Positions 7,637 to 36,081 of a DNA stretch of 64,000 bases are shown in pieces. How positions within the stretch are numbered: position 1 is the first letter of the stretch; each line of letters opens with the position of its first letter. The DNA comes from Candidatus Eisenbacteria bacterium (GTDB lineage: Bacteria; Orphanbacterota; Orphanbacteria; Orphanbacterales; Orphanbacteraceae), in NCBI GenBank assembly GCA_016930695.1, contig JAFGGD010000034.1, positions 199,375-263,374 on the forward strand. Reading direction: 5' to 3'. The notes beneath the pieces are model-generated. The model was not told the origin of the DNA. It saw only the letters and a program-made list of their open reading frames with translations, and ran no database searches. A program made the translations under genes and the position numbers.

Positions 7637-9325
<1,689 letters not shown>

Positions 9326-9353
9326 CGATCCGCCGCGCGAATCGGGGTAAGGA

Positions 9354-10439
9354 ATGGCATCGCTACGCACGTTGTTGGAAGAGATGATGGAGCGGGGGGC
9401 GTCGGATCTCCACCTTTCGGCGGGCCACCCGGCCCAACTCCGGGTCGACGGGAATCTGACCTCCAGCCGGACCGGCGAGTCGCTCACGCCGGAGACGACC
9501 CTGCAGCTTGCCTATTCGATCCTCACCGAGGATCAGAGGAAGCGCTTCGAGAACGAGAAGGAACTGGATCTTTCTTTCGGGATCAAGGGGCTTTCCCGCT
9601 ATCGGGCGAACGTGTTCCTTCAACGGGGCGTCGTTTCGGTGGCGATCCGGTCGATCCCCTTCGAGATCCTCAGCTTCGAGGAACTCGGCCTGCCGCCGGT
9701 GGTGCAGGAACTCGCGGAGAAGCAGAAGGGCTTGATTCTGGTGACCGGGCCGACCGGAAGCGGCAAGTCGACCACGCTCGCGTCGATCATCGACAAGATC
9801 AACGAGGAGCAAAAATCCCACATCATCACGATCGAGGATCCGATCGAATACGTCTACAAGCATAAAAACTCCACCGTGGACCAGCGGGAGGTGGGGACCG
9901 ACACGAATTCCTTCCCCAGCGCGCTCAAATACGTGCTGCGGCAGGACCCGGACGTGATTCTGATCGGCGAGATGCGCGACTTGGAAACGATCGCGGCCGC
10001 CCTGACCATCGCCGAGACGGGGCATCTGGCGCTCGCCACGCTCCACACCAACTCCGCTTCCGAGTCGATCACGCGCATCGTGGACGTTTTCCCTTCGTCC
10101 CAGAAGAACCAGGTGCAGGCGCAGCTCGCCTTCGTGCTTCAGGGGGTGGTGTGTCAGCAGCTTGTTCCCAAGAGCTACGGGCCCGGGCGGGTGATGGTCG
10201 CGGAGGTGCTCGTCTGCACCCCGGCGATCCGCGCCGTGATCCGAGAAGGGAAGATTCATCAGATTTACGGCCTCATGCAGGCCGGAACGAAATACGGCAT
10301 GCAGACCATGAACCAATCGCTCTTTCACGCCGTCCGCCGGAAACATCTTTCCCGGGAGGCGGCTATGGAGCGGAGTCCGGACACGAACGAGTTGGAGCAG
10401 ATGTTCGGACGGACCATGGCGCCCGCCGGACGCCGCTAG
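9354..10439 (+). CDS. pilT: Type IV pilus retraction ATPase PilT
   Basis: A 361-residue twitching-motility ATPase that depolymerises the pilus. Features are the N-terminal ASDLHLSAG PAS-like segment (16-24), Walker A GPTGSGKST (132-140), the EDPIEYVYKHK Asp box, Walker B VILIGEMRD and the AIRAVIREGKIHQI segment near the C-terminus (AIRNLIREGK in PilT). It lacks the tetracysteine of PilB. The gene starts 28 bases after pilB and is followed 15 bases later by pilC. Confidence 0.95.
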   Translation: MASLRTLLEEMMERGASDLHLSAGHPAQLRVDGNLTSSRTGESLTPETTLQLAYSILTEDQRKRFENEKELDLSFGIKGLSRYRANVFLQRGVVSVAIRSIPFEILSFEELGLPPVVQELAEKQKGLILVTGPTGSGKSTTLASIIDKINEEQKSHIITIEDPIEYVYKHKNSTVDQREVGTDTNSFPSALKYVLRQDPDVILIGEMRDLETIAAALTIAETGHLALATLHTNSASESITRIVDVFPSSQKNQVQAQLAFVLQGVVCQQLVPKSYGPGRVMVAEVLVCTPAIRAVIREGKIHQIYGLMQAGTKYGMQTMNQSLFHAVRRKHLSREAAMERSPDTNELEQMFGRTMAPAGRR

Positions 10440-10454
10440 AAGGGAGGGTGACCG

Positions 10455-11663
10455 GTGCCGGTTACCTATGAATGGAAAGGGAAGACCGCGGCGGGGGAGA
10501 GGCTTTCGGGCGAACTCACCGTCGACAACCGGAGGGAGCTGAATAACGTCCTCCGGAAACGCCACGTGATCCCCACGCAGGTGAAGGAGAAGCGGACCAA
10601 GCAGGATGGAGGAAGGCGTGGGAGGGTGAACACGGGAGACCTGTCGGTCTTCACCCGGCAGTTCGCCACCATGATCAACGCCGGCCTGCCCATCGTGCAG
10701 TGTCTGGAGACCCTCTCCCGGCAGGTGACCAAGGATCGTCTGCGCGGCGTGGTCGGCGCGGTGATGCACGACGTCGAGTCCGGCTCCACCCTCGCCGAGT
10801 CGATGGGGAAACACCGAGACGTCTTCACGGAACTGTACATTTCCATGGTCGAGGCGGGCGAGGCGGGCGGTATCCTGGACGTGATCCTGCAGCGTCTCTC
10901 CACCTTCCTGGAGAAATTGGACGCCCTGAAGCGGAAGGTGAAGACCGCCATGGTCTATCCGGCGGTCGTGCTCAGCGTGGCGGTGCTCGCCACCGTGTTC
11001 CTTCTCATCTTCGTCATTCCGACCTTCGCGAAGATGTTCTCCGACTTCGGCGGAACCCTCCCCCTTCCCACGCGGATCGTGATGGGGCTCTCCGGATTTC
11101 TGCGAACGAAATGGTATCTGCTCCTCGGGGTCACCGCGGGGTCTTTTTATATGTTCAAGCGCTACAACGCCACCGAGAAGGGGAAACGGAAGGTCGACGC
11201 GGGCCTCCTCAAGATTCCGGTGATCGGCGACATTCTCCGCAAGAGCGCGGTGGCGCGCTTCACCCGCACGCTGGGAACGCTCATCTCCAGCGGTGTTCCG
11301 ATTCTGGACGGCCTCCATATCACCGCCCGCACCTCCGGGAACATGATCGTGCATGACGCGATCATGGACACCCGCGCGAGCATCCGGGAGGGGCAGACCA
11401 TCGCGGAGCCGCTCCGGGCGAGCGAGGTTTTCCCGCCCATGGTGGTGCAGATGATCTCCATCGGAGAGGACACGGGCGCCCTGGACGAGATGCTCGGGAA
11501 GATCGCCGATTTCTACGAAGAAGAGGTGGATACCGCCGTGGACGGCCTGACCTCCATCATCGAGCCGCTCATGATCGTGATGATGGGCGGAGTGGTCGGC
11601 GGCATGGTGGTCGCCATGTATCTGCCCATCTTCAAGATGGTGAACGTGATTATGGCCCAGTAG
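10455..11663 (+). CDS. pilC: Type IV pilus inner-membrane platform protein PilC
   Basis: A 402-residue polytopic protein of the PilC/GspF family. It carries the duplicated cytoplasmic helical domain (FTRQFATMINAGLPIVQCLE at about 70-90 and FTRTLGTLISSGVPILDGL at about 270-290). Each copy is followed by membrane helices (AVVLSVAVLATVFLLIFVIP, WYLLLGVTAGSFYMF and a C-terminal one around MIVMMGGVVGGMVVAMYLP). It couples PilB and PilT to pilin insertion and extraction. ATG would be internal, so GTG 10455 in the context AGGGAGGGTGACCGGTG is taken as start. Confidence 0.95.
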   Translation: MPVTYEWKGKTAAGERLSGELTVDNRRELNNVLRKRHVIPTQVKEKRTKQDGGRRGRVNTGDLSVFTRQFATMINAGLPIVQCLETLSRQVTKDRLRGVVGAVMHDVESGSTLAESMGKHRDVFTELYISMVEAGEAGGILDVILQRLSTFLEKLDALKRKVKTAMVYPAVVLSVAVLATVFLLIFVIPTFAKMFSDFGGTLPLPTRIVMGLSGFLRTKWYLLLGVTAGSFYMFKRYNATEKGKRKVDAGLLKIPVIGDILRKSAVARFTRTLGTLISSGVPILDGLHITARTSGNMIVHDAIMDTRASIREGQTIAEPLRASEVFPPMVVQMISIGEDTGALDEMLGKIADFYEEEVDTAVDGLTSIIEPLMIVMMGGVVGGMVVAMYLPIFKMVNVIMAQ

Positions 11664-15101: not shown

Positions 15102-15530
15102 ATGAGAGGACAACGAGGATTCACCCTGATCGAGCTCATGATCGTGGTCGTCATCATCGGTATCCTGGCCGCGATCGCCATTCCGAACTTCGTTTCCATG
15201 CAGAGCCGTGCCAAGGAAGCGGGCGTCAAGGGGAACATGCACATGATTCAGCTCGGGTTCGAGGACTACAGCGTCCTGACCGACGGCGTGTACCCGACCG
15301 CGGCCGCCGACGCGACCCCGGGCGGCGACACCCTGGTCGACCTGCTTCCGGGCGGCGCGTACCCGAGCAACCCCTTCTCGGGCGTCGCGACGGTCTTCAA
15401 CTGGAACGCGGCCCCCGCCGGCAACGCGGGCGCCATCGCCGCGACCACCGCGGGCGTGACCGGCTATGTGATCGAAGGCCGGGGCGAGGATCCGGCCGGA
15501 TTCCTCAGCCTCCAGCTGACCAACGGCTAG
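15102..15530 (+). CDS. pilA: Type IV major pilin PilA
   Basis: A 142-residue prepilin with short leader MRGQRG, then the processed N-terminus [20 protein letters not shown] with Glu5. This hydrophobic helix is followed by a small globular domain with no cysteine ([21 protein letters not shown]), as in the short Geobacter-type or GspG-like pilins. It is the main pilus subunit candidate: it has its own sigma-54 promoter, a strong ribosome binding site (GGGAGGAAC) and an intrinsic terminator directly after it. It would be cleaved by a PilD peptidase, which is not encoded in this window. Confidence 0.92.
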
Positions 15531-22879: not shown

Positions 22880-23335
22880 ATGGACGCGCGACAGAACAAG
22901 GAAAAGGGCTTTTCCCTGGTGGAGTTGGTATTCGCCGTCGGGATTCTCGCTCTCGCGTTTCTGGCCATGGGGAGGCTGTTCGTGACCAGCATCGAGCACT
23001 CCCGCCAGGGGCGGCACGACATGATCGCCCTGAACAGCGCCAACGAGATTCTCGAGCGGATGCGCTCCATCGATTTCGACGATGTGCCCGACAAGTTCGA
23101 CGGCCTCGACACGGCGGACAGCGCCAGCGTGCCGAATGAGGTGCGCGTCTGGTTCCGTCATATGCGTGAGAATCTTGGGCCGACCGCCCGCTGCGAAATC
23201 AACGTATTCGACGAAAACGAGAAGGCGCAGCTGACCAACGGGCTGATCGAGGTGGAGATCCTCACAAGCTGGACCGAAAGGGGCCGGGAAAGAACGATGC
23301 GGACCGGCACCTATCTGGTCCGCATGGGGAGCTGA
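22880..23335 (+). CDS. PilV-like minor pilin
   Basis: A 151-residue prepilin with leader MDARQNKEKG, then FSLVELVFAVGILALAFLAMG, including Glu5. The segment NSANEILERMRSIDFDDVP after the helix is typical of PilV/GspI-type minor pilins. It starts the minor pilin cluster with a good ribosome binding site (GGGAGGAAAAG). Minor pilins of this kind form the priming complex at the pilus tip. Five bases separate it from the next gene. Confidence 0.82.
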   Translation: MDARQNKEKGFSLVELVFAVGILALAFLAMGRLFVTSIEHSRQGRHDMIALNSANEILERMRSIDFDDVPDKFDGLDTADSASVPNEVRVWFRHMRENLGPTARCEINVFDENEKAQLTNGLIEVEILTSWTERGRERTMRTGTYLVRMGS

Positions 23336-23340
23336 CGGCG

Positions 23341-24897
23341 ATGTGGACTAAGCGATCCATTCTCGGAAATGAGAGGGGCTCCGGCCTTTTTCTCTCTTTG
23401 CTTTTGCTTACCGCTCTTTCTCTCTTCGGGATTTCCCTGGCGCTTCTCTCGGCGACGGACAGACGGGTCGCCGCATACGAGAGGGAAGGGTCCCGGGCGC
23501 TGAACGCCGCCGAGGCGGGACTGGCGATGGCGAAGCGGGGAATCCAAGATCGAATCCTCGAGTTCGACGACGAGAACGGGAACGGCTATCCCGATTTCCG
23601 GATCGCGGACACCCTCGATTGGGGGGGGAGCTATGACGTCTTCGGTGAATCGGACGTTCCTCTCGCCGGGTCCGCCTCCCCTTACGCGGGAGACGTGTTC
23701 AACCTGACCGCCGTCGGACGGGTGGGGGACGCCCTCCGTCAGGTCCGCGCGGAGATCCAGCACGACAGCTTCCTGAAATACGCCCGCTTCGTCGAGGACG
23801 CGGGCACCTCCTATGGCTGCGGCGCCGTGCTGACCGGCGAGGTCTACGTGGGGGGCACGCTCGGCCTTCCCTCCGGCTGCGCGGACGGAACGGACGTGGA
23901 GTTCCTGGAGATGGTCGCCGCCACGCGCGGCATCACCAACAAGGACGAGGCGATCTTCCACAAGGGGTACACCGATTCGGCGACGACCATCGACCTGCAA
24001 AGTTCGGTCGACCTGCCGCTCATGCGGAACAAGGCGAAGGGCGCCGGCGGCGAGTGCGACTGCGAGGGGATCGGCCACGTCGGTCTCTACATGGGCTGGA
24101 ATCCTCTCGGCGTCGGCGTGAACGGAACCATCGACCTCGGCCTCTTCGACTTCGAGGTGATCGATGCCGGCACCGGCGACACGTTGGTCGCCTACAACGG
24201 CGCGACTCTGAACGACCCGACCACGGGCGGTTCGCTCCGCTCCGCCGATTTCAACGGCGTGATTTTCTACGAGGGAGACGGATACGTCCGGGGGCGCCTG
24301 GACGGAGTGAGCGCGCGCAGTCTGATCATCTTCGCCACCGACGACATCTTCGTGGAGGGGGACATCCTCACCGGACACACCGGATACGACGAGGTCACCC
24401 GCCTCCCCAACGGCTCGGGAGAACCGGTCAACATCGGGCTCGTCGCGGCGGACTACATCTACCTCGGCAACGTCAATCGCGTGGTCTTCATCGACGCGGC
24501 GCTGATGGCCGTGGGCGCCAACTGGCGGGCCTATAACACCAACACTTCCGCTCATCCCGCCGTCGCGCCGGGCAACTACGACCTGGACCAGGACGGGATC
24601 GTGGGAGAGACGCCCTACAACAATGACGGGGGCGCCGGCACCGGCTGGGACGAGGTGATCACCGCCGCGAACCAGGACATCACCTGGGTACTGAACATCA
24701 ACGGGCCGATCATCACCCACGACGGCGGTTCCGCGGCCCCCTGGAACGCGAGCACCGTGCTCGCGGCCGCCACGGGCCCGACGCGTCGTTATAACTACGA
24801 CATGGACATCACCGACTTTCCGCCTCCCTGCTTCCCGGTTCCCTTGAATCTGTGGAAGGACAAGGCCTGGGCGGAGATGTACGCGGCGGGGGAGTAG
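23341..24897 (+). CDS. PilX-like pilus assembly protein, large
   Basis: A 518-residue protein with a PilX-type N-terminus: basic start, ERGSGLFLSLLLLTALSLFGISLALL helix, then the conserved ALNAAEAGLAMAKRGI. It lacks a strict prepilin GFTLxE site, as PilX family members often do. The remaining about 450 residues are beta-rich with many Gly/Asp turns and repeated acquired-domain-like stretches (SLIIFATDDIFVEGDILTG), several times longer than classical PilX (about 170-200). It lies second in the minor pilin operon. A tip-located structural or adhesive role is inferred. Confidence 0.7.
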   Translation: MWTKRSILGNERGSGLFLSLLLLTALSLFGISLALLSATDRRVAAYEREGSRALNAAEAGLAMAKRGIQDRILEFDDENGNGYPDFRIADTLDWGGSYDVFGESDVPLAGSASPYAGDVFNLTAVGRVGDALRQVRAEIQHDSFLKYARFVEDAGTSYGCGAVLTGEVYVGGTLGLPSGCADGTDVEFLEMVAATRGITNKDEAIFHKGYTDSATTIDLQSSVDLPLMRNKAKGAGGECDCEGIGHVGLYMGWNPLGVGVNGTIDLGLFDFEVIDAGTGDTLVAYNGATLNDPTTGGSLRSADFNGVIFYEGDGYVRGRLDGVSARSLIIFATDDIFVEGDILTGHTGYDEVTRLPNGSGEPVNIGLVAADYIYLGNVNRVVFIDAALMAVGANWRAYNTNTSAHPAVAPGNYDLDQDGIVGETPYNNDGGAGTGWDEVITAANQDITWVLNINGPIITHDGGSAAPWNASTVLAAATGPTRRYNYDMDITDFPPPCFPVPLNLWKDKAWAEMYAAGE

Positions 24898-24901
24898 GAC
24901 C

Positions 24902-25390
24902 ATGAGGGGGAATCGAAAACGAGTGCGCGGATTCACGCTGACCGAGCTGATGGTGGTTCTCTCCGTCATCGGGATCGTCGCCGTGGCGACCGCCCCCACG
25001 GTGATCCGTGCGTGGAAGCGGCCCGCTCTGGAGCGGGAGGCGAACGATCTCGCCTCCACCATGCGCCTTTGCCGCCAGAAGGCGGTTTGGCGGCGGATTC
25101 CCTACCGCCTCACCATCGATCCCGCGCGGCGCTGTTATTGGACCGAGCGGCAGGATACGACCGGCACCTGGGTGCTCGACCCGGTCGACTCGGTCCGTGT
25201 GGACGGAACCGTGCAGTTCTCCGTTCGCGCCGGCGGGAGCGGCTCGAACAACGACATCCTTTTCCTGGGTAGGGGAAGCGTGGACAGGAACGATGCGCCC
25301 GCGACCGTGGAATTCTGGGACGCCCGGGAGGAGACCCTCTCGGTGCAGCTGATTCGGACCGGTCGCGTCCGAATGTCGAGAAGGGGCTGA
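24902..25390 (+). CDS. FimT/GspH-like minor pseudopilin
   Basis: A 162-residue prepilin with leader MRGNRKRVRG, then FTLTELMVVLSVIGIVAVATAP, including Glu5. The segment DLASTMRLCRQKAVWRRIPYRL matches the GspH/FimT pattern (small residues, then R-AV-R--PV). The rest is a small beta domain with no obvious insertion. It is third in the minor pilin operon, four bases after the PilX-like gene and three bases before the giant pseudopilin. Confidence 0.85.
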   Translation: MRGNRKRVRGFTLTELMVVLSVIGIVAVATAPTVIRAWKRPALEREANDLASTMRLCRQKAVWRRIPYRLTIDPARRCYWTERQDTTGTWVLDPVDSVRVDGTVQFSVRAGGSGSNNDILFLGRGSVDRNDAPATVEFWDAREETLSVQLIRTGRVRMSRRG

Positions 25391-25393
25391 CCG

Positions 25394-28261
25394 ATGAAAG
25401 GCAAGGCAGGATTCACGCTGGTCGAGGTCACCGTGGCTCTCGTCATTCTCGCGGCGGTCTCGGCGCTCTCTTACCAGATGTTGATCCGCGCGCAGAGCGC
25501 CTTCCAGTCTCAACGGGACCTCGTGGAGACGCAGCAGAACGCCCGCATGGCGATGGAGTCGATCACCGGCGATCTCCGGCAGATCAGTTACGGCAAGGAT
25601 CCGACCCAGCCCTCGGTGGTGTTCGCCAGCCTCGATTCGATCGTGTTCGTCGCCGATCTCTTCGATTCCGTCCCCGGCGCCGAGATGGTGGCGATCTATC
25701 TGACGTCCACCCCCGACTCGGGTACGTTGAATCCGTCGGACCGGATCGTCTTTCGCACCGTCTGGGACACCGCCGGCGCGGAGGTGATCACCGGGCCGAT
25801 CGCCTACGGCGTGGCGGACAGCGGTCTCACCTTCACCTACTTCGATCGGGAGGGAGACCACATGTCCTTCCCCATCGTGCAGCCGGAGCATGTCAGCGAG
25901 GTGGAAGTGGCGATCACCGCGCAAACCGCCCACGCCGTCGCCGCCGGGAACTATCTGGACGTGACATCGACGACCACCGTGTTCCCCCGGAACCTCCCCT
26001 TCACGCCGCCCATGCCCCGGCCGGAGTCGCCCGGATGCGGGAACTTGTCGAGCCCGAACTGCGAGTCCCTCACGCTCACCTGGACGCGGCCGACGACGAA
26101 CACCGACGGGAGCGAGCTGTTGTTCAACGACATCTCCCACTACTCGGTCTACTACGGGACGCGGACGGATTCGATGAAGCTGGACACGCGGCTCGCCCGA
26201 AATCTGGATACTTGGACGGTGAAGAATCTGACCGGCGGGCTCTCTTACTACGTGGACGTGACCGTCACCAGTCTCGCGGGCGTGGAGAGTTACCCCTGCC
26301 GGCGGAACGGTACGGTGGGCTCCTCGGCGCCCCCCAAGTCGCCGGCGAATTTCCAGGTCGGCGGCGGGATCGGCGCCATCTCCCTCAACTGGTCGCCGGT
26401 GACGGAGGATACGCTGGACGCCCAGATCACGGCCGAAGTGAGTTACCGGGTCTACCGGGAGGAAACCGCCGGCTTCACCCCATCCATATCGAACCTGGTC
26501 GTCGCCGAACTGATCGATACCTCCTACACCGATTTCCTGAGCGATTCCTGCGCGCACTTCTTCTATCTGGTCACCGCCGAGGCGTGCGGCATGGAGGGGG
26601 GACGCTCGAGTGAACAGGCGATCAGCCTTCCCGCGGCCGCATCCTGTCCGCCCACCGTACTCGCCTACGAGGGATCGAACCCGGGCGAAGTGGGCGTCAT
26701 CTGGAGCCCGCCGACCACGCGCACAGACGCCACTTCGCTTTCGTCGGGGGACATCAGCGGCTACCGTCTCTTTTGGGGGCTCGCCACCGGCTACTACACC
26801 GATTCCATGGACGTGGGGACTACGCCGCTGGACCAGATCATCTCCGGCCTGCAGGACTGTTCCACCTACTACGTCAATCTGGCCGCCATCGACGCCTGCG
26901 GCACCCGGGGTGTCGTCTGTCCCGGACGGGAGAGCGCGGCGCGGACCTCCGCCCCCTGCAACGAATATGTCCCCGAGCCGGTGGCGTCTCTCGCCTTGAC
27001 CGCGGGGGACCAGAGGATGGATCTGGCCTGGCCCGCGAACCTGACCGACTGCGACCTGGCCGGATACAACGTCTACTACGGGAGCTCTCCCGGTTTGTAC
27101 GATGGGACCGGGGCGACGCAGGGGCCGTCACCGGTCTTCGTGGACGCCTCGGTGGCCCACCAGGATACGGTGCACGCCGTCTATACGTTGAGCGGTCTGG
27201 ACGCCTGCACGGAGTACTCGATCATGGTGCAGTGCGTGGACGTCTGCGATCCGCCGCACCTGAGCGAGGGGAACGCGACGGCCACGGACATGACCTACTG
27301 CGGCACCTGCGACATCGTCAAGGCCTGCGTCACCGAGATCGCCGAGGGGAGCGGACAACGGCGCATCCGTTATCAGATCGCCAACGACGGCGAAGTGGAT
27401 CTGGACGTGGATCAAATGGATCTGGTCTGGGGCAGCGCGGCCGGCCTGACGGAAATCCTGGTGGGCGGCTCGTCGGTTTGGAAGGAGGACGGATCCGCAG
27501 GCGAGGATCCGACCGGGACGCAAGGATCGCCCGCCGAGATCGACATCGACGATTTCACTCTCGGTGAGGACGAGGATTTCGGGCATCCTCGGGAACTGAC
27601 CCTCGTTTTTAACGGTTCCATGACCGGTGACGTGGTGGACGTGACCTATCACACCCAGGAGGGGACCTGCACCAACACCCTCTCCCCCTGCGGGATCCTG
27701 CTCGATGATGACTTCACGCAGGCCAACGGTTCGCCCATCGGTTGGACCCCCCGGACCGGCACGACCTGGCGCGTGACGAGCAACGTCCTGCAGACGACCA
27801 GCAGCAGCCGGATCACGCCCGACGCGATCGGCTTCTCCATGAGCGACTACACCGTCACCGCGCGCATGCGTGTCGAGAGCGGCAGCAGCACCCGCCGGGT
27901 CGGCGTCTACGTCCGCTACCGGGATACCGGAACCTATTATCTCCTGAGGTATTACCCGGGTTACGATCTCCTCGAGTTCCGGAAGAAGGTGAACTTCGGC
28001 GGGCTCGATCTTCTCGGCTATACCTACGACTTCGACTTGGACAACGGCGTCTGGTACACGCTGACCGTCGCCGCCTACGGGAACTCCTTCCGCTGCTGGG
28101 TCGACGGCGTGCCGATCGAGTGGGAGGGGATCGGCCCCACGATCCACGACGGGTCCATCGCGACCGGCAATGTCTGTCTGTACGCCTGGGACATCTATAC
28201 CGCCTACTTCGACGACGTGGTCGTCGAGCCCACCTGCGGATGCGGGGGCATGGTCCCCTAA
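25394..28261 (+). CDS. Giant PilW-like pseudopilin fused to fibronectin III-like and lectin-like domains (candidate pilus tip adhesin)
   Basis: A 955-residue protein with a true prepilin start: MKGKAG, then FTLVEVTVALVILAAVSALSYQ and a PilW/GspJ-like body (about 30-200, QQNARMAMESITGDLRQISYG). After it come about four fibronectin type III-like modules (about 205-305, 315-415, 420-515, 525-640; YSVYYGT, YRVYREE, YRLFWGL, YNVYYGS strands). Next is a Cys-containing linker domain (about 645-770), and last a concanavalin/LamG-like module (about 775-950, with YYLLRYYPGYDLLEFRKK and FRCWVDGVPIEW). Ordinary PilW is 200-350 residues. The pilin end would place it in the tip complex with the other modules exposed outside. 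The domain calls rest on motif reading only. Confidence 0.8.
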   Translation: MKGKAGFTLVEVTVALVILAAVSALSYQMLIRAQSAFQSQRDLVETQQNARMAMESITGDLRQISYGKDPTQPSVVFASLDSIVFVADLFDSVPGAEMVAIYLTSTPDSGTLNPSDRIVFRTVWDTAGAEVITGPIAYGVADSGLTFTYFDREGDHMSFPIVQPEHVSEVEVAITAQTAHAVAAGNYLDVTSTTTVFPRNLPFTPPMPRPESPGCGNLSSPNCESLTLTWTRPTTNTDGSELLFNDISHYSVYYGTRTDSMKLDTRLARNLDTWTVKNLTGGLSYYVDVTVTSLAGVESYPCRRNGTVGSSAPPKSPANFQVGGGIGAISLNWSPVTEDTLDAQITAEVSYRVYREETAGFTPSISNLVVAELIDTSYTDFLSDSCAHFFYLVTAEACGMEGGRSSEQAISLPAAASCPPTVLAYEGSNPGEVGVIWSPPTTRTDATSLSSGDISGYRLFWGLATGYYTDSMDVGTTPLDQIISGLQDCSTYYVNLAAIDACGTRGVVCPGRESAARTSAPCNEYVPEPVASLALTAGDQRMDLAWPANLTDCDLAGYNVYYGSSPGLYDGTGATQGPSPVFVDASVAHQDTVHAVYTLSGLDACTEYSIMVQCVDVCDPPHLSEGNATATDMTYCGTCDIVKACVTEIAEGSGQRRIRYQIANDGEVDLDVDQMDLVWGSAAGLTEILVGGSSVWKEDGSAGEDPTGTQGSPAEIDIDDFTLGEDEDFGHPRELTLVFNGSMTGDVVDVTYHTQEGTCTNTLSPCGILLDDDFTQANGSPIGWTPRTGTTWRVTSNVLQTTSSSRITPDAIGFSMSDYTVTARMRVESGSSTRRVGVYVRYRDTGTYYLLRYYPGYDLLEFRKKVNFGGLDLLGYTYDFDLDNGVWYTLTVAAYGNSFRCWVDGVPIEWEGIGPTIHDGSIATGNVCLYAWDIYTAYFDDVVVEPTCGCGGMVP

Positions 28262-28371: not shown

Positions 28372-29418
28372 ATGGGTTTCTTTGACGCCTTTTTACGGGC
28401 CGACTCCGGCACGGTGGGGATCGACATCGGCAGCCACACGATCAAAGCGGTCGAAATCTCACGCAAGGGAGGTCGGCTCGGCCTCGTCCACTACGGCTTG
28501 GGGCAGCTCCCCCAGGACGCGATCGTCGACGGCGAAGTGATGGACCGCGACGTGGTGGTGGAATGCCTCCAGGAGACTCTCCGGGAGAGCGGCATCACGG
28601 TACGGAACGCCGTTTCCGCCATCTCCGGACGCTCGGTGATCGTGAAACGGATCACCATGGATACCATGACCGAGCAGGAGGCGGAAGAGGCGATCTATTG
28701 GGAGGCGGAGCAGCACGTCCCCTATGGGATCGACGAGGTCTCCCTCGACTTCCAGGTCCTCGGCGACATCGGCGACGGGAAGATGGACGTCCTTTTGGTG
28801 GCCGCCAAGCGGGACACGGTGGAGATGCACACCTCGCTGCTCCGCGACGCCGGGCTCGTCCCCTTCGTGGTGGACGTGGATTCCCTGGCGGTTCAGAACT
28901 CTTTCGAGATGAATTATGAGATCGAGCCGGAAGAGAAGATCCTGCTCCTCAACGTGGGCGCGAGCGTGACCAACCTGAGCCTCCTTTCCCGGGGCGCGCC
29001 CCTTTTCACGCGGGACCTCTCGGTGGCGGGGAACGCCTTCATCGAGGAGATCCAGCGCGTGATGAACGTGGATCGGAGCGAAGCGGAGCGGATCGCCGCG
29101 TCCGTCGACGACGAGGATGCGGGCGCGGTGGGGCCGATCCTGAACACGGTCGGCCAGGATCTGCTTCTCGGCGTAGAGCGCTCTCTCTCGTACCTGAAGG
29201 GAAACACCGGGTCCTCCGATGTCTCCCGCGCTTATCTCTCCGGCGGCGGTGCGCTGCTTCCGGGCCTGCATTCGTTCCTCTCGGAGCGGCTCGGCGTGCC
29301 CGTGGAGATCGCCAACCCGTTGCGCAACCTGCTGCACGATCCGTCCCTGTTCGGGGACGCCGACCCGGAGCTGACCGGTCCCGCCTTGGCGGTGGCCGTC
29401 GGCCTGGCGTTGCGGTGA
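28372..29418 (+). CDS. pilM: PilM, actin-like pilus alignment protein
   Basis: A 348-residue cytoplasmic ATPase of the actin/FtsA fold. Visible motifs are the phosphate-1 loop VGIDIGSHTIKAVEI near residue 15, the phosphate-2 region LLNVGASVTNLSLL at about 185-198, and the adenosine loop YLSGGGALLPGL near 285. PilM binds the PilN N-terminus and links the periplasmic alignment complex to PilB/PilT. It begins pilM-N-O-P-Q, 110 bases after the minor pilin operon. No convincing promoter was seen in that gap, so it may be co-transcribed with the minor pilins. Confidence 0.93.
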   Translation: MGFFDAFLRADSGTVGIDIGSHTIKAVEISRKGGRLGLVHYGLGQLPQDAIVDGEVMDRDVVVECLQETLRESGITVRNAVSAISGRSVIVKRITMDTMTEQEAEEAIYWEAEQHVPYGIDEVSLDFQVLGDIGDGKMDVLLVAAKRDTVEMHTSLLRDAGLVPFVVDVDSLAVQNSFEMNYEIEPEEKILLLNVGASVTNLSLLSRGAPLFTRDLSVAGNAFIEEIQRVMNVDRSEAERIAASVDDEDAGAVGPILNTVGQDLLLGVERSLSYLKGNTGSSDVSRAYLSGGGALLPGLHSFLSERLGVPVEIANPLRNLLHDPSLFGDADPELTGPALAVAVGLALR

Positions 29419-29431
29419 GGGGAGGGGAACG

Positions 29432-30049
29432 ATGATCCGAATCAACCTGATCCCGCGGGAAGAGCGGATCACCACCAAGTCGGCGGCGCCGAACTGGATG
29501 ATGATCGCCGCCGCGGTGGCGCCCGTGATCTATCTGCTCGTCCTGCTGAGCGTCGCCATGGTCCAGGAGCACCGGGTCACGGTGCTGGACGTGACGGTCC
29601 AGGAAGAGGAATCCACCCTCGCCCACTACGCCCCGGCGCTGGAGAAAATCCAGCGACTCACCAAGGAGAAGGAAGAGGTGCGGGACCGTCTGGACGCGCT
29701 CGCCGCCCTCGACCGGGATCGCCGTCTGGCGGTGCGCCTCCTGGAAGCGGTGAACCGGAGCGTGCCCAGCTATCTCTGGATCGAGAAGCTTGAGGAAACC
29801 CGCGAGGAAGGCGGAGAGCTGCTGCTCACCGGGAACACCTTCTCGAACCTGACCGTGTCCGACTTCCTCGATCGTCTCGCCGAGAGCGAGTTGTTCGAGG
29901 AGGTGGATCTGACCATCACCCAGGAAAAGCGAATCGGCGAGCACAAGGTCGTGGAGTTCTCCGTCACCGGGCGGGGGATCCGGTCCGGTTCCGTCGAGCC
30001 GGGAGAGGCGACGCTGGCGTCGCTCTTTCCGCCGGTGGAGGGGGGATAA
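29432..30049 (+). CDS. pilN: PilN, pilus alignment protein
   Basis: A 205-residue bitopic inner-membrane protein. It starts with the PilM-binding motif MIRINLIPREERI, followed by one membrane helix (WMMIAAAVAPVIYLLVLLSVA), a coiled-coil (about 50-95) and a ferredoxin-like periplasmic domain (LWIEKLEETREEGGELLLTG). It heterodimerises with PilO. It sits 13 bases after pilM and 3 bases before pilO. Confidence 0.92.
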   Translation: MIRINLIPREERITTKSAAPNWMMIAAAVAPVIYLLVLLSVAMVQEHRVTVLDVTVQEEESTLAHYAPALEKIQRLTKEKEEVRDRLDALAALDRDRRLAVRLLEAVNRSVPSYLWIEKLEETREEGGELLLTGNTFSNLTVSDFLDRLAESELFEEVDLTITQEKRIGEHKVVEFSVTGRGIRSGSVEPGEATLASLFPPVEGG

Positions 30050-30052
30050 ACG

Positions 30053-30730
30053 ATGCGCGCTCCCGAAATCGATTTTCGGAGCCCGAAAGTACAGAAGATC
30101 CTCTTCGCGGTGATGATCTTCGCGGGCGTGAACTACGTATATTTTTTCACCGATTATTTCTCCTTCAACTTTCCGGTGCGCAAGGCGCAGATCGAAGAGC
30201 GGCAGGAGAAGGTGAACCGGCTCGCCGCCAAGGTGGAGCAGGCGAAGCGGGCTTCCCAGAACCTCCCCAAGCTGGAGGCGGATCTCGCTACGATGCACGC
30301 CGACTGGGAACTCGCCATGAGCCATCTGCCGGAGAAGAAGGAAATCGCTTCGCTGCTCCGGCGGGTCACTCTGGCGGGCGAGAAATCGGGAGTCCGATTC
30401 CTGCTTTTCGAGCCGGACGGAGTGGTGCATCAGGGCATCTACGACGAGCATCCCGTGAACGTGAAGATCCAGGGCGCCTATCACGACATCGGCGCTTTTC
30501 TGGGCAGGCTCATGAACCTGGACCGGATCGTTCACGTGTCGGAAATGAACTTTCATTCGACCAGGGGCGACGAGGATGAACCGCTGGTGACCGGCGAGAT
30601 GGTGGTTTCCGCTTATACGGTGCCGCTCGAGCCTTTTGATCCGGTCGCCGAGAACCCGCCAGCCGCCGGCAAAAGGACGAAGAATAATCATGCGCGTTCC
30701 CACTCTGCTCCGGAACCTTCGAACGAGTAG
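30053..30730 (+). CDS. pilO: PilO, pilus alignment protein
   Basis: A 225-residue bitopic protein with a short cytoplasmic start, one membrane helix (ILFAVMIFAGVNYVYFFTDY), a coiled-coil (about 40-85) and a ferredoxin-like domain containing the PilO pattern HLPEKKEIASLLRRVTLAGEKSGV and VKIQGAYHDIGAFLGRL. It pairs with PilN and recruits PilP. Its last 41 bases overlap the next gene. Confidence 0.92.
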   Translation: MRAPEIDFRSPKVQKILFAVMIFAGVNYVYFFTDYFSFNFPVRKAQIEERQEKVNRLAAKVEQAKRASQNLPKLEADLATMHADWELAMSHLPEKKEIASLLRRVTLAGEKSGVRFLLFEPDGVVHQGIYDEHPVNVKIQGAYHDIGAFLGRLMNLDRIVHVSEMNFHSTRGDEDEPLVTGEMVVSAYTVPLEPFDPVAENPPAAGKRTKNNHARSHSAPEPSNE

Positions 30731-31451
30731 GAAGCACGCGGTCGTCGCCGCCGGCGCGACCGCGGCGCTCCTGGTGATGGCGCTCGTCCTGTGGGGCGGC
30801 TCGGTGTTCGGCGTCGCCGGGAAAGGCGTCGGTTGGGTCGTGGACCGCACGGTGCGCGTCGTGGCCTACCGGAACACCGCGCCGGAATCGGAAACCACCG
30901 AGGCGCGGGCCCGCGTCGCCGTCGCCCGCTCTCCGCTGGAACGGGTGAAGGGGACCGAGGCTCCCGCGGCGCCCGCGGCGGAGGAACCCGGTCCGCCCGC
31001 GCTGCAAGGGGGCGAAGCCGAACCGGACGCTTCGGTGGAGGAGGCGACCCTTGTCGCCGTGCCCGCGCCGGACGTGCTCACCGATTCGGGATTGCCTTCC
31101 TCGCTGGACGAGGAGCGCTTCGGCGATCGGTCGGGGGAACTTCCCTATCGGAGCTTCGGGATGCGGGACCCGATGACGCCGCTCGTCGTCCCCGGCAAGA
31201 TGGACGACGCGGGCGGGCGGTTCAGCATCTACGGGCTCGTCCTCGTCGGACTGGCCTGGAAGAACAGCGAAGCGCTGGCGCTCTGCGAAGACAAGTATCA
31301 CAAGACCTGGCTCTTCCGCGAAGGGGACTGGACCAAGGACGGAGCGCGGGTCGTGGATATCGCCGACAATTCGATCACCTTTGCGCAGCTGAGGTATGGG
31401 GAGACGAGCCGCCATACGATCCGCCTCGCCGCGCGGGAAGGGGAAAACTGA
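30690..31451 (+). CDS. pilP: PilP-like pilus assembly protein
   Basis: A 253-residue protein in the PilP position. It has an N-terminal membrane anchor (AVVAAGATAALLVMALVLWG) instead of the lipobox seen in classical PilP, a Pro/Ala/Glu-rich linker (about 65-150), and a C-terminal beta domain with RDPMTPLVVPGK and FSIYGLVLVGLAWKNSEALAL, resembling the PilP homology region that binds the secretin. ATG 30690 overlaps pilO by 41 bases. The assignment rests on context and this C-terminal domain. Confidence 0.78.
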   Translation: MRVPTLLRNLRTSRKHAVVAAGATAALLVMALVLWGGSVFGVAGKGVGWVVDRTVRVVAYRNTAPESETTEARARVAVARSPLERVKGTEAPAAPAAEEPGPPALQGGEAEPDASVEEATLVAVPAPDVLTDSGLPSSLDEERFGDRSGELPYRSFGMRDPMTPLVVPGKMDDAGGRFSIYGLVLVGLAWKNSEALALCEDKYHKTWLFREGDWTKDGARVVDIADNSITFAQLRYGETSRHTIRLAAREGEN

Positions 31452-32794
31452 TGAGCCTGGATGCGGGCATCGCGCGCGGAATCGGCGCGGCGGCCGGGAA
31501 TGGGAGAGGACGAGCCGGCGCGGGGGCGACGGTGATTCTCCTGCTCCTCCTGTCGGTCCTCGCCGCGACACCCACCCTCGCCGGGGGAGACCGAATCTCC
31601 CTGGACGTGCAGAAGGCGGACATGGAAACCGTCCTTCGCATGCTCTCCGACTTCAGCGGGCGGAACATCGTCGCCGGCCCGGAAGTAAAGGGAGAGGTCA
31701 GCGTCCGCCTCGAGGAAGTTCCCTGGCAGAGCGCCCTGGACGTCGTGCTTCGGGCGAACGGCTACTCCTGGAAGGAAGACGCCTCCGGCATCATCCGGGT
31801 CGCCACGATCAAGGACATGCAGAACGAGGACGTGGAGCGCGAGGCGGCGGCCCGGAAGCGGGAGGATCTGCTCCCTCTGGAAACCCGGATCTTCCCGGTC
31901 AACTTCTCCAAGGCGGAGGAACTTCTTGGGGCGATCGAGACGACGGTCTCCAAGCGCGGCCTGGCCCACGTGGACACGCGCACCAACACGATCCTGGTGA
32001 AGGACATCGGAAGCAATCTGGATCGGGTGGGCGATCTGATCGCCGAATTGGACAAGGAGACCATGCAGGTCGAGATCGTGGCGAAGCTGATCGACATCGA
32101 CGCCAAGATCTCCCGCGAGCTGGGCATCCAGTGGAACGCGAAGAACCTGAACAATCCGAATATCGACGCGACGGGCAACGCCTCGGTGAGCGCCGAGATC
32201 GCGCAGCCTTCGGGTGAGTTCTCCGTCGGTACCGTCGGGCCGGGCGGGTCGCTGGACGCGACGCTGCAGGCCCTCGCCGCGGAGAACAAGGCGCGGATCA
32301 TCTCCAACCCGAGGATCACCACGCTGGACAATCAGCGCGCCTGGATCCTGGTGGGGAAGAAGATCCCCCTCATCGTTTCCGATCCCTCGGGGAACCCGAT
32401 CACCGAGCTGACCACCATCGGGATCCAGCTCACCGTGACTCCCCACATCCACGCGAACGGGAACGTCACTCTCGATCTGCATCCCGAGGTGAGCGACCTC
32501 TCCTCCCAGGCCACGGTGCAGGGCGGGATCATCATCGTAACCAGCGAAGCCTCCACACGGGTGATGGTGGAGAGCGGCCAGACCGCGGTGATCGGCGGCC
32601 TGATCCGGAGCAACACGTCCAACACGGATTCGGGCGTTCCCTTCCTCCGCTCCGTGCCGCTTCTCGGCCATTTCTTCAGCGCCAGCACCCATGTTAAGGA
32701 GGACCGGGAGCTGCTGATCTTCGTGACCCCGACCGTCCTCGAAGCCGCCGACCTGGCCCAAAAGGCCGTAGACGCGGAGGCGATGGAACGATGA
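31451..32794 (+). CDS. pilQ: PilQ, type IV pilus secretin
   Basis: A 447-residue outer-membrane secretin through which the pilus leaves the cell. It has a signal peptide (ILLLLLSVLAATPTLA), an STN-type domain (ISLDVQKADMETVLRMLSDFSG and VPWQSALDVVLRANGYSW), an N1 domain (IFPVNFSKAEELLGAIE to RTNTILVKDI), then the secretin core with EIVAKLIDIDAK, LGIQWNAK and the closing VIGGLIRSNTSNTDSGVPFL and VPLLGHFF motifs. It is shorter than proteobacterial PilQ because the AMIN domains are absent. The start overlaps the pilP stop (TGATG). Confidence 0.93.
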   Translation: MSLDAGIARGIGAAAGNGRGRAGAGATVILLLLLSVLAATPTLAGGDRISLDVQKADMETVLRMLSDFSGRNIVAGPEVKGEVSVRLEEVPWQSALDVVLRANGYSWKEDASGIIRVATIKDMQNEDVEREAAARKREDLLPLETRIFPVNFSKAEELLGAIETTVSKRGLAHVDTRTNTILVKDIGSNLDRVGDLIAELDKETMQVEIVAKLIDIDAKISRELGIQWNAKNLNNPNIDATGNASVSAEIAQPSGEFSVGTVGPGGSLDATLQALAAENKARIISNPRITTLDNQRAWILVGKKIPLIVSDPSGNPITELTTIGIQLTVTPHIHANGNVTLDLHPEVSDLSSQATVQGGIIIVTSEASTRVMVESGQTAVIGGLIRSNTSNTDSGVPFLRSVPLLGHFFSASTHVKEDRELLIFVTPTVLEAADLAQKAVDAEAMER

Positions 32795-35700
32795 AGACGA
32801 TAACGACGAAACGACGCAACCTTTTCGAAGCGCTCCTTCTCTCGACGCTGATTCTTCTCTGGATCGGATGCCGGGACGAGGGGTCGATCCAACCCTTCGA
32901 ACCCACGGCGCTTCCGACCGCCTTTCTCCACAGCCTCTTCTCCGACCCCGGACTGCTTCCCATGGGCGGGCGGGAGTCGCAGCTCACCGCCTACGTGGTC
33001 GATACCGACGGCGTCCCGGTGGAGGGGGTGGAGGTCTCCTTCAGCTCCGACCTGGGATCGGTGGTCGAATCGGCGGTGACCGACGAAAACGGCGTGGCCC
33101 GGGCGGTCTACACCAGCGGTTCCGAGAAGGGGACCGCCACGGTGATCGCCTCCATCGGATCCTTCCAGCTGAGCACCACCATTCTGGTCGGCGCCAACGA
33201 GCTGATCGTCGGCTCCACGTCGGTGGTGGCGGACGGCCGGAGTAAAACCACCGTCTCGGCGCGTGTCTTCCGCAAGGACGGTGAGCCGGCGAAGACCATC
33301 AACGTGACCTTCACCTCCACCGCGGGGTCCATCCCCTCGGTCGCGGTCACCGACTCCTCCGGCTACGTGGCGGTTCAGCTGACCGCCCCGGCGAGCCGAA
33401 CCGATCTGCAGGGGGAGATCACCGCCATGGTGGACGCCGCCGACCTGGGCATCGTCGACGAGGGGGGTCTGGGAGAGTCCGAGGTGATCGGCGTGGCGTC
33501 GATCATGTTCCGGGGAATCACCCTCTCGTTGGAGACGGCGGAGACCGAGCTGGAGGCGTCCGGACGAGACACCACCGTGGTGCGTTGCCTCGTGGCGGAG
33601 ACGGTCCGGCGGGTACCGGTGAAGGAGCTGGAGGTGAGCTTCGGCTCCAGCCTCGGGTCCATCACCTCCTCGGTGCTCACCGACGAGAGCGGCATCGCCG
33701 TCGCCACGCTCCGGAGCGGGGTCGTCGCCGGGATCTGCGCGGTGAGCGCCCTGGTGGACACGATCCAAGCGGAAGCGGACGTGGAGTTCACGCCGCTCCA
33801 GATGCTCCCCCTTACGGCGACGCCGCGGAACATCCTGACCGGGGGCAAGAAGTCGGAGATCTCGACGTCGCTCCTGAACCAGAGCAACAACCCGGTGCCG
33901 GGGATGGAGGTTCGTTTCCGCACCGACCTGGGAGTCATCCTCGCCAGCGCCTACACCGACAGCATGGGCCGCGTGGCGGTGAACTTGGTGAGCGGCGACT
34001 CGACGGGCGTCGCCACCGTGAGCGCCCGCTTCGGATCGCTCAGCGTGTCCACCGAGGTCACCATCGGCGAGGTCGTCTCCGAGCCCCTCAAGCTGACGCC
34101 CCTCGATTTCAATCCGGAGGAGCTGACCGCCGACGGCGTGAGCAAGAGCCGGGTGATCACGAAACTCTTGAACGGATCCAACAACCCGGTGGTGGCCGAG
34201 CCCGTGGAGTTCGCCACCACACTGGGCGTGATCAACGCGTCGGTGCTCACCGATTCCCAGGGGGTGGCCGAGGCGTGGCTGACCAGCGAGGAGTCTCTCG
34301 ATACGGCCGTGGCCTATGTCTCCGCTTCCTATGGGAGCGTTTCCGTGCACAGCGAGATCCTCTTCCTCCCGACGGTGAACAAGGTACCCGTGTCGATGAC
34401 CGTCACGCCGTCGAGGCCGACCATTCAGGTGGCCGGTCTGGACGACCTGGAGAGCGCCGTGCTCACGGCGGTCGCCTATGACGAGCGGGGCGATCCGATC
34501 GAACAGGGTTGGGACATCACCTTCCGGATCGATTCCGGGCCGGGGATGGGGGAGTACATCACCTATCCGGACTCCGGATCGGGCACGCAGGTGACCGTGC
34601 CGATCATCGGCGGCGAGGCGCGGACCACGCTGGTGGCGGGAACGCGGACCGGCATCATCAGCGTCACCGCCCGAACGGCGGGGGACGTGGACGCCAGCGC
34701 CTCCGTGGGGGTCAGCGCGGGCGATCCCGCTCACGCGGTGATCGGCATCGACTCTCTCGCGGGCATCAACATGGAGGGCGGTCTCTGGAACTGGAAGGTG
34801 ACGATGGCGATCACCGACGCCCACGGCAACCCGGTGTCGGCCTTCACGCCGGTCTACGTCACTTTGCATGACGGGTACTGCGGGTCCGGCGTTCTCCCGG
34901 CGGGGATGCAGATCACCGGCAACGTGACGACGGAGAACGTGCCGGACTGCAACACCGGCACGCCGCTCCCGGGCGTCGCGCGGGCGTGCCTCCACTCCCC
35001 GTACCGGTGGTTCGAGGACATGCCCAGCTTCGCCATCGAGGTGCGGGCGTCGGCGGACACCACCCTGGACTGCCTCTTCATCGACCACAGCTCCGCCAAC
35101 GCCGACCCGGCGAGCATCGTCCTCTACTCGGTGGAGGACAGCTCCCTGGCGGTCTCGGGCGTGGGCGCCGACGAGACCTCGCGGATCATCTTCGAGGTAC
35201 GGGACGACATGGGCCAGCCCATGCGCGCGGGGAACAGGGTGCCGGTGGACTTCACCATCCAAAGCGCGCCCGCCGGCGTGACCCTGTCGCGCTACACGGA
35301 CACCACCAACGCGGAAGGCCAGGTTTCCACCACCGTCCGGAGCGGCACCGCCGCCGGCGTGGTGAAGCTGAAAGCGGTCAGCGGCGGGGTGCAGTCCAAC
35401 GTGGTCAATCTCGCGGTCCACGGCGGACCGCCCGATCCGGAACACTTCAGCATCGCCGCTTCGAGGGTCAACATCGAGGGGCTGCTCCGGTACGGACTGT
35501 CGGACACGATCACCGCCTATGTATTCGACCGGTATTCCAATCCGGTTCCGGCGGGGATGGCGGTCTACTTCACCACCGATTTCGGCGGCATCATCGGATC
35601 GGGCGTGACCAACTCGATCGGCCAGGCGACGGCGATCCTCTACTCGGCGGCGCCGGTCCCCACCTGCGAGGACGACGGGCTGGTGCACGTCACCGCCACC

Positions 35701-36081
35701 ACCGTGGACGAGTTGGACGAGGAGATCACCGCCGAGATCGACGTGCTCTTCACCGGAACCACCACAATCTCCGTCGAGCCGGTGAGCTTCGCCGTCGAAA
35801 ACGGCGGCTATACGGACCTGCTCTTCACGGTGGACGATCCCTGCGGGAATCCGCTCGTGATGGGAACCAACATCATGATCAGCTCCAGCGCGGGCAGCCT
35901 GGTGGGGAACATCAACGTGGATCTGCCGGACACGAAGTCCCAGGGGTACACCACGTTCTGGGTGCGACTCTCCGACGACGACGCGGAGGACACCGATCCG
36001 CCCGAGGGTTGCTCGATCAATGTCGAGGTCACCAGCCGGAACGGAAACGCCGCCCTGGTGGTCTTCGGGACCATCGACTAG
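32791..36081 (+). CDS. Large lipoprotein with about ten Big_1-type Ig-like repeats
   Basis: A 1096-residue protein with a lipoprotein signal (LLLSTLILLWIGC, lipidated Cys about 27). The rest is a chain of about nine or ten repeats of roughly 95 residues, each with a pattern such as TDGVPVEGVEVSFSSDLGS followed by TDENGVARAVYTSG, typical of bacterial Ig-like domain 1 as in intimin and invasin. There is no beta-barrel or C-terminal adhesin head. It overlaps the pilQ stop by four bases (ATGA), so it is in the pilMNOPQ transcript. A surface rod or pilus-associated adhesin is a reasonable inference. Confidence 0.82.
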   Translation: MKTITTKRRNLFEALLLSTLILLWIGCRDEGSIQPFEPTALPTAFLHSLFSDPGLLPMGGRESQLTAYVVDTDGVPVEGVEVSFSSDLGSVVESAVTDENGVARAVYTSGSEKGTATVIASIGSFQLSTTILVGANELIVGSTSVVADGRSKTTVSARVFRKDGEPAKTINVTFTSTAGSIPSVAVTDSSGYVAVQLTAPASRTDLQGEITAMVDAADLGIVDEGGLGESEVIGVASIMFRGITLSLETAETELEASGRDTTVVRCLVAETVRRVPVKELEVSFGSSLGSITSSVLTDESGIAVATLRSGVVAGICAVSALVDTIQAEADVEFTPLQMLPLTATPRNILTGGKKSEISTSLLNQSNNPVPGMEVRFRTDLGVILASAYTDSMGRVAVNLVSGDSTGVATVSARFGSLSVSTEVTIGEVVSEPLKLTPLDFNPEELTADGVSKSRVITKLLNGSNNPVVAEPVEFATTLGVINASVLTDSQGVAEAWLTSEESLDTAVAYVSASYGSVSVHSEILFLPTVNKVPVSMTVTPSRPTIQVAGLDDLESAVLTAVAYDERGDPIEQGWDITFRIDSGPGMGEYITYPDSGSGTQVTVPIIGGEARTTLVAGTRTGIISVTARTAGDVDASASVGVSAGDPAHAVIGIDSLAGINMEGGLWNWKVTMAITDAHGNPVSAFTPVYVTLHDGYCGSGVLPAGMQITGNVTTENVPDCNTGTPLPGVARACLHSPYRWFEDMPSFAIEVRASADTTLDCLFIDHSSANADPASIVLYSVEDSSLAVSGVGADETSRIIFEVRDDMGQPMRAGNRVPVDFTIQSAPAGVTLSRYTDTTNAEGQVSTTVRSGTAAGVVKLKAVSGGVQSNVVNLAVHGGPPDPEHFSIAASRVNIEGLLRYGLSDTITAYVFDRYSNPVPAGMAVYFTTDFGGIIGSGVTNSIGQATAILYSAAPVPTCEDDGLVHVTATTVDELDEEITAEIDVLFTGTTTISVEPVSFAVENGGYTDLLFTVDDPCGNPLVMGTNIMISSSAGSLVGNINVDLPDTKSQGYTTFWVRLSDDDAEDTDPPEGCSINVEVTSRNGNAALVVFGTID

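Follow-up and report, generated by a model that had tools for sequence, protein, structure and literature searches.

The pilus cluster

The window, by which we mean the whole stretch of 64,000 nucleotides analysed here, holds a pilus gene cluster in the order PilB, PilT, PilC, PilS, PilR, PilA, an ABC transporter and a second histidine kinase/response regulator pair, continuing with a secreted FG-GAP protein, PilV, PilX, FimU, a PilW-type protein fused to further domains, PilM, PilN, PilO, PilP, PilQ and a Big_1 protein (Table 1). The arrangement is close to the type IVa pilus gene order of Myxococcus. PilB, PilT, PilM and PilQ score over curated cut-offs, and PilC, PilN, PilO and the minor pilins were recognized by Pfam or NCBIfam matches. 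Because PilV, PilX and FimU are found in one cluster with the PilW fusion, all four conserved minor pilins are present and the fusion occupies the J slot; judged by its genes, the cluster is a complete retractile type IVa pilus set with four H/I/J/K minor pilins. PilX shares 65-74% identity with its orthologs. Its length was considered as an oddity and dismissed, as PilX-like neighbours of PilW elsewhere measure 439-781 aa. The start of the FG-GAP gene overlaps the stop of the second NtrC-type response regulator. A scan of viral contigs gave no matches.

Table 1. Coordinates and basis of the features discussed, in window positions unless a genome and contig are named
Feature	Position	Strand	Basis
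pilB, pilT, pilC	7637..11663	+	TIGR02538 and TIGR01420 over cut-off; third gene has the PilC model as best match, under cut-off
Major pilin PilA	15102..15530	+	
Secreted FG-GAP beta-propeller protein, 458 aa	21326..22702	+	PF13517, E=8.5e-8
PilV/GspI-type minor pilin	22880..23335	+	
PilX/GspK-type minor pilin, 518 aa, no E+5	23341..24897	+	PF14341
FimU/GspH-type minor pilin	24902..25390	+	PF12019, PF07963
pilW-type modular minor pilin, 955 aa	25394..28261	+	ORF list, domain profiles, orthologs
Class III leader, 55-residue alpha1 helix and PilW/GspJ-type pilin domain, residues 1-203	25394..26002	+	
FnIII module 1, residues 205-312	26006..26329	+	PF00041 at 222-296
FnIII-like module 2, residues 313-415	26330..26638	+	hhalign to modules 3 and 4, 79-81%
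FnIII module 3, residues 416-524	26639..26965	+	hhalign to module 1, 97%
FnIII module 4, residues 525-636	26966..27301	+	hhalign to module 3, 96%
Cys-rich domain, residues 637-771	27302..27706	+	No known family; strands in model
ConA-like/CBM66-like C-terminal module, residues 772-955	27707..28258	+	Profile to 4azz, 4b1l, 4b1m
pilM, pilN, pilO, pilP (by position), pilQ	28372..32794	+	
Big_1/Invasin_D3 repeat protein, 1096 aa, lipobox-like N-terminus	32791..36081	+	
Stop-containing pilW genes of Nitrospirota	G229:C22:55857, G289:C109:22448, G245:C1:2085506, G301:C2:1604481		

A PilW-type pilin with a modular extension

The gene in the J slot is an ATG-initiated open reading frame whose product begins MKGKAG/FTLVEVTVAL. 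This is a prepilin leader of class III, carrying one of the residues allowed at -1 (G or A), here G, and the E at +5, and it matches PF07963 (N_methyl) over its cut-off (E=1.8e-6, 27.7 bits against 21.2). When PilW-type homologues were supplied, AF2 resolved the pilin domain as a helix (residues 9-63) followed by strands (74-196) at a pLDDT of ~50-91. This part of the chain is 24-33% identical to PilW-type proteins from other bacteria. Among the curated PilW/GspJ models searched, PF16074 did not match the fusion and TIGR01711 (gspJ) stayed under its cut-off, at 20.8 of 64.85 bits in the N-terminal part, so the J assignment is based on the alignment to PilW-type proteins together with the operon slot. 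On these grounds, we place the product among the class III prepilins, as a PilW/GspJ (J) type and a predicted type IVa minor pilin.

Behind the pilin domain, PF00041 (FnIII) matches over its cut-off (E=6.6e-11, 42.7 bits against 25), as it does in 7/7 orthologs (best E 3.8e-16). Profile-profile comparison with hhalign connected modules 1 and 3 (97%), 3 and 4 (96%), 2 and 3 (79%) and 2 and 4 (81%), whereas the pilin part stayed below 1% in comparison with each of the four; these links among the modules, and their lack with the pilin part, are the reason for counting four FnIII-like modules in residues 205-636. No likeness to the later Cys-rich and C-terminal domains was seen in the same kind of comparison. 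Module 2 scores slightly below the cut-off of PF25523, and module 3 weakly matches neogenin (PDB 1x5h, E=0.0032). In the AF2 run of the full chain, which used PilW homologues covering the pilin domain, the modules came out at a pLDDT of ~30.

The sequence-only reading of this DNA had described a 955-residue protein with a genuine prepilin leader, a PilW-like body and about four FnIII-like modules, and all of this holds. What it had called a Cys-containing linker is indeed Cys-rich, but proves to be a beta domain of about 135 aa that matches no family and weakly resembles the end of a modular PilW from another phylum. Its concanavalin/LamG-like end needs a similar adjustment: Laminin_G_3 scores below the Pfam cut-off (22.2 against 27.6 bits), and the ortholog profile puts this ConA-like end nearest to CBM66, aligning residues 782-942 to the CBM66 of Bacillus subtilis levanase (4azz, 4b1l, 4b1m) at E=1.3e-8. 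A single-sequence model of residues 765-955, itself of low confidence (pLDDT 42), had galectins and CBM66 as its best structural matches, and Foldseek placed it among ConA-like/CBM66 folds with a probability of 1.0 and a TM of ~0.5. An invariant CGCGG lies close to the end of this module. The C-terminal end thus resembles CBM66/ConA-like domains in both sequence and modelled fold, from which carbohydrate binding may be surmised; CBM66 members differ in their ligands, binding levan or xanthan (PMC11002231). With an intact pilin moiety and foreign domains predicted to fold C-terminal to it, the protein is by its sequence a modular pilin.

Conservation within the phylum and the search for PilY1

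The same fusion was found at the same place in 7/7 genomes analysed from this small phylum, representing five genera, and orthologous loci keep the gene order with all four minor pilins. Full-length orthologs in four genomes besides that of the window are 51-59% identical to it, and the G001 copy is 62% identical over residues 1-334, where its contig ends within module 2. In G004 (L047 14004-16830), the frame is broken exactly at the junction of pilin and modules, giving two frames, and no signal peptide precedes the modules; the split may be a strain lesion, an assembly error or an on/off switch. The remaining six genomes have one open frame, five at full length and that of G001 as far as the contig end.

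Purifying selection acts over the whole chain, with dN/dS of ~0.1-0.6 in every module. FnIII module 1 is conserved like the pilin domain (67-72%). All six genomes whose sequence extends that far retain the ConA/CBM66-like end. Of 23 cysteines, 20 are invariant in the orthologs covering them, which fits modules that are exported and braced by disulfides.

PilY1 counts as a core protein of diderm type IVa pili (PMC10191384) and normally caps the H-I-J-K complex through contacts with PilX (PMC7541494, PMC13190605). The statement that the window encodes no PilY1 can be extended: sequence-profile searches with PF05567 found none elsewhere in the window's draft genome or in the six other draft genomes of the phylum (0/7, six of the seven being >90% complete), and the PF05567 propeller does not occur in the 955-aa fusion itself. 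Within the reach of draft genomes and sequence profiles, the counter-evidence that the sequence-only reading had named, a PilY1 homologue in another part of the genome, thus did not turn up. A second PilY1 profile, built here without a positive control, likewise had no matches in the seven genomes. The PF05567 search evidently works, as it matched in 5/9 outside genomes, 72/148 Desulfobacterota and 65/148 Nitrospirota. Nevertheless, a missing PilY1 is by itself a weak argument, because 55/164 sampled genomes with only short PilW also have no PF05567 match. Nor does a missing PilY1 call for a fusion of this kind: three Desulfobacterota drafts with no PF05567 match carry PilWs of 216-246 aa, and Smithellaceae drafts with short PilW have neither a giant PilW nor PF05567.

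Giant PilWs in other phyla

A profile of the PilW pilin domain was searched against 148 genomes each of Desulfobacterota and Nitrospirota, all drafts of unstated completeness, and PilWs of at least 1000 aa, measured as open-frame lengths, were termed giant. Most PilW frames were ~190-480 aa long; giants of ~1100-2100 aa (L065-L076, L077-L089) occurred in 8 Desulfobacterota and 13 Nitrospirota genomes. In those scanned, the pilin part was followed by FnIII, Big_1, Big_2, Big_7, Invasin_D3, H_lectin or a ConA-like domain, although in a few nothing but the pilin part was recognized. Lectin-like domains near the end were H_lectin in L073 and a ConA-like domain in L069. The plain order fimU-pilV-pilW-pilX, with no PilY1 following, was seen in five of the seven neighbourhoods read (L138, L139, L140, L142, L143). 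In L140 (G069:C38:1-20000), two minor pilin operons with giant PilWs of 1398 and 1708 aa adjoin each other, and one of them encodes a PilX-like protein of 781 aa. Some pilW genes of Nitrospirota contain one or two in-frame stops inside the pilin domain and still match over their full length (Table 1).

PilY1 was present in 1/21 genomes with a giant PilW, as against 109/164 with short PilWs only (Desulfobacterota and Nitrospirota together, p=4e-8). The contrast appears in each phylum, with 1/8 against 51/73 genomes in Desulfobacterota (p=0.003) and 0/13 against 58/91 in Nitrospirota (p=8e-6), and also at the level of loci in Desulfobacterota, where PilY1 accompanied 0/12 giant PilWs against 54/108. 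In the sole exception, G136, PilY1 lies 3 kb from a second, short PilW. Modular PilWs of 1181-1202 aa were also encountered in 2/4 genomes of a fourth, small phylum, with PilY1 in 0/4.

The negative association between giant PilW and PilY1 is real in the sampled genomes; repeated independent replacement is a claim that goes beyond it. Giant forms fall into few clades of the PilW tree, the best tree having six changes, of which well-supported branches force only one, and the cluster that holds the window's PilW (SH-aLRT 92) also takes in the giants of the fourth phylum, two from Nitrospirota and one from Desulfobacterota. Since the giants belong to few clades and a test on independent pairs has no power, the link to PilY1 absence may reflect shared history. 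The tie between fusion and missing PilY1 proposed in the sequence-only reading is borne out as far as the rarity of PilY1 beside giant PilWs is concerned, and is blunted by the many short-PilW genomes that also have no PF05567 match.

Relation to known pilus subunits

Proteins of this kind are not new, as modular pilins with FnIII or ConA-like modules are already documented (PMC8179133, PMC9934059). Passages of the survey by Raynaud et al. (2021) describe modular pilins as widespread, with FnIII (IPR003961) and PF13385 (LamG_3) among the 15 commonest extra domains (PMC8179133). These proteins share with ours an N_methyl pilin onto which a foreign domain has been grafted; bimodular forms are the commonest there and the extreme case has 860 residues, and the passages covered here draw no link to the absence of PilY1 in diderms. 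The closest parallel is PilC of Streptococcus sanguinis, a pilin with an Ig-like domain and a ConA lectin that binds glycans and has been modelled at the tip (PMC9934059). Both proteins have a prepilin moiety, a beta-sandwich spacer and a ConA-like end, PilY1 is absent in both cases, and both are assigned to a proposed tip complex. However, S. sanguinis is a monoderm, and its PilC has one Ig-like module and a short pilin moiety in a set of three minor pilins, whereas the window protein comes from a diderm with PilQ and the full H-I-J-K set, and has four FnIII modules and a CBM66-like end.

Other large subunits differ more. CofB and TcpB of type IVb pili are also large tip minor pilins with C-terminal beta domains, but they are trimeric pilus initiators without sequence-recognized FnIII or lectin domains, and CofB acts as adapter to CofJ, a secreted protein. 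ComZ of Thermus and the PilX/GspK subunits are likewise large modular minor pilins, but their extra domain (in ComZ, a beta-solenoid) is set within the sheet of the pilin, in contrast to the C-terminal string of domains on a J subunit seen here. The PilY1/PilC tip adhesin resembles the window protein in its proposed role, that of a modular adhesin which minor pilins hold out at the end of the pilus; it is not a pilin and has the PF05567 propeller, whereas the window protein is a pilin without PF05567. What is new here is a diderm modular J pilin with a full H-I-J-K set and no PilY1 found, as well as the occurrence of giant PilWs with FnIII/Ig stalks, rarely accompanied by PilY1, in Desulfobacterota, Nitrospirota and a fourth small phylum.

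Proposed function and alternatives

The domain make-up, the operon, the conservation, the selection on the chain, the failure to find PilY1 and the negative association of giant PilW with PilY1 are directly supported by our data. The explanation that we favour, and consider probable, is that the protein is a modular J pilin presenting its own stalk and a carbohydrate-binding-like head at the tip of a retractile type IVa pilus. The prepilin part would be processed and take its place at the pilus tip, in the initiation complex of four pilins (H-I-J-K). FnIII module 1 would project from its C-terminus, probably packed against the minor pilins, as it is conserved as much as the pilin domain. Next would come a stalk braced by disulfides and made up of FnIII modules 2-4 plus another beta domain, ending in the ConA/CBM66-like beta-sandwich, which most likely binds a polysaccharide, be it in the extracellular matrix, on the surface of a neighbour or on a solid substrate. 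Extension through PilQ would carry the protein out, the end module would bind and retraction by PilT would pull, so that one chain would do what a separate PilY1 does in model Gram-negative bacteria. Tip position, carbohydrate binding and substitution for PilY1 are what we infer. Against this proposal stands an observation from Myxococcus xanthus, in which a bulky PilW3-sfGFP fusion entered the machine and did not support motility (PMC7541494), and cargo on a PilW subunit can therefore jam the machine.

A tip capped by another protein is the main alternative, unlikely in our estimate, although it has to be taken seriously. The secreted FG-GAP propeller could be a functional analogue of PilY1, with the PilW extension as an accessory arm or docking stalk: its gene stands directly before pilV in 7/7 genomes, its product has a signal-peptide-like start and FG-GAP repeats as in the propeller fold, which PilY1 also has, and CofB offers a precedent of a minor pilin that carries a secreted adhesin, CofJ (PMC8179133). 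However, the FG-GAP protein is less conserved (35-44%) than the minor pilins, carries no recognizable adhesin module and shows no detectable homology to PilY1 (hhalign 0.1%). It may be a partner, so far overlooked, of the pilus tip or of the outer membrane. Because this propeller is encoded just upstream in all seven genomes, the 'one piece' of the earlier proposal, in which a single chain is both minor pilin plug and adhesive tip, is not established. A J pilin with adhesin-type modules does stand, and 'candidate one-piece tip adhesin' remains a plausible description. It is rather improbable that the FnIII/CBM66 extension has no adhesive role and instead sets length or acts as a plug, gating PilQ or holding the tip at a distance, or that it persists as a carried-along remnant. 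In M. xanthus, a vWFA domain of PilY1 is proposed to plug the vestibule of PilQ (PMC7541494), many FnIII modules are mere spacers, and the ligand of the extension is conjectural. Yet the ConA/CBM66-like end is under purifying selection wherever the sequence reaches it, and giant PilWs elsewhere bear different lectin-like modules near their ends.

Two further explanations were rejected. PilW is homologous to GspJ, and weak N-terminal matches to GspJ and GspI could suggest that the protein serves a secretion apparatus as a pseudopilin and is not the tip subunit of a surface pilus; with PilB, PilT, PilM and PilQ over curated cut-offs, PilA in the cluster and other prepilin genes, perhaps those of a T2SS, elsewhere in the genome (C44), we hold this to be very improbable. 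The two frames of the G004 copy are what an assembly or sequencing artefact uniting two genes might leave visible, but the frame is open in all other copies and the G004 module frame has no export signal, which leaves such an origin a negligible chance.

Beyond this phylum, our modular J pilin may be one case of a wider pattern, in which several diderm phyla have replaced PilY1 by a giant one-chain PilW/J (~950-2100 aa) with FnIII/Ig stalks and, in some, lectin-like ends, so that the tip adhesin is built into the initiation complex rather than docked on it. We regard this combined claim as possible, with the balance tilting slightly against it. If lineages do build the adhesin into PilW, PilY1 would not be universal in diderm type IVa pili. 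The separability of its functions (priming, retraction control, adhesion and surface sensing) would become testable, and the end module of PilW could be read as a predictive marker of the targets to which uncultivated bacteria adhere.

The Big_1/Invasin_D3 repeat protein encoded at the locus is a further candidate for the cell surface, linked to the pilus by gene position. It has a lipobox-like start (LWIGC), is 52-59% conserved and directly follows pilQ, as in every genome where the end of pilQ was read.
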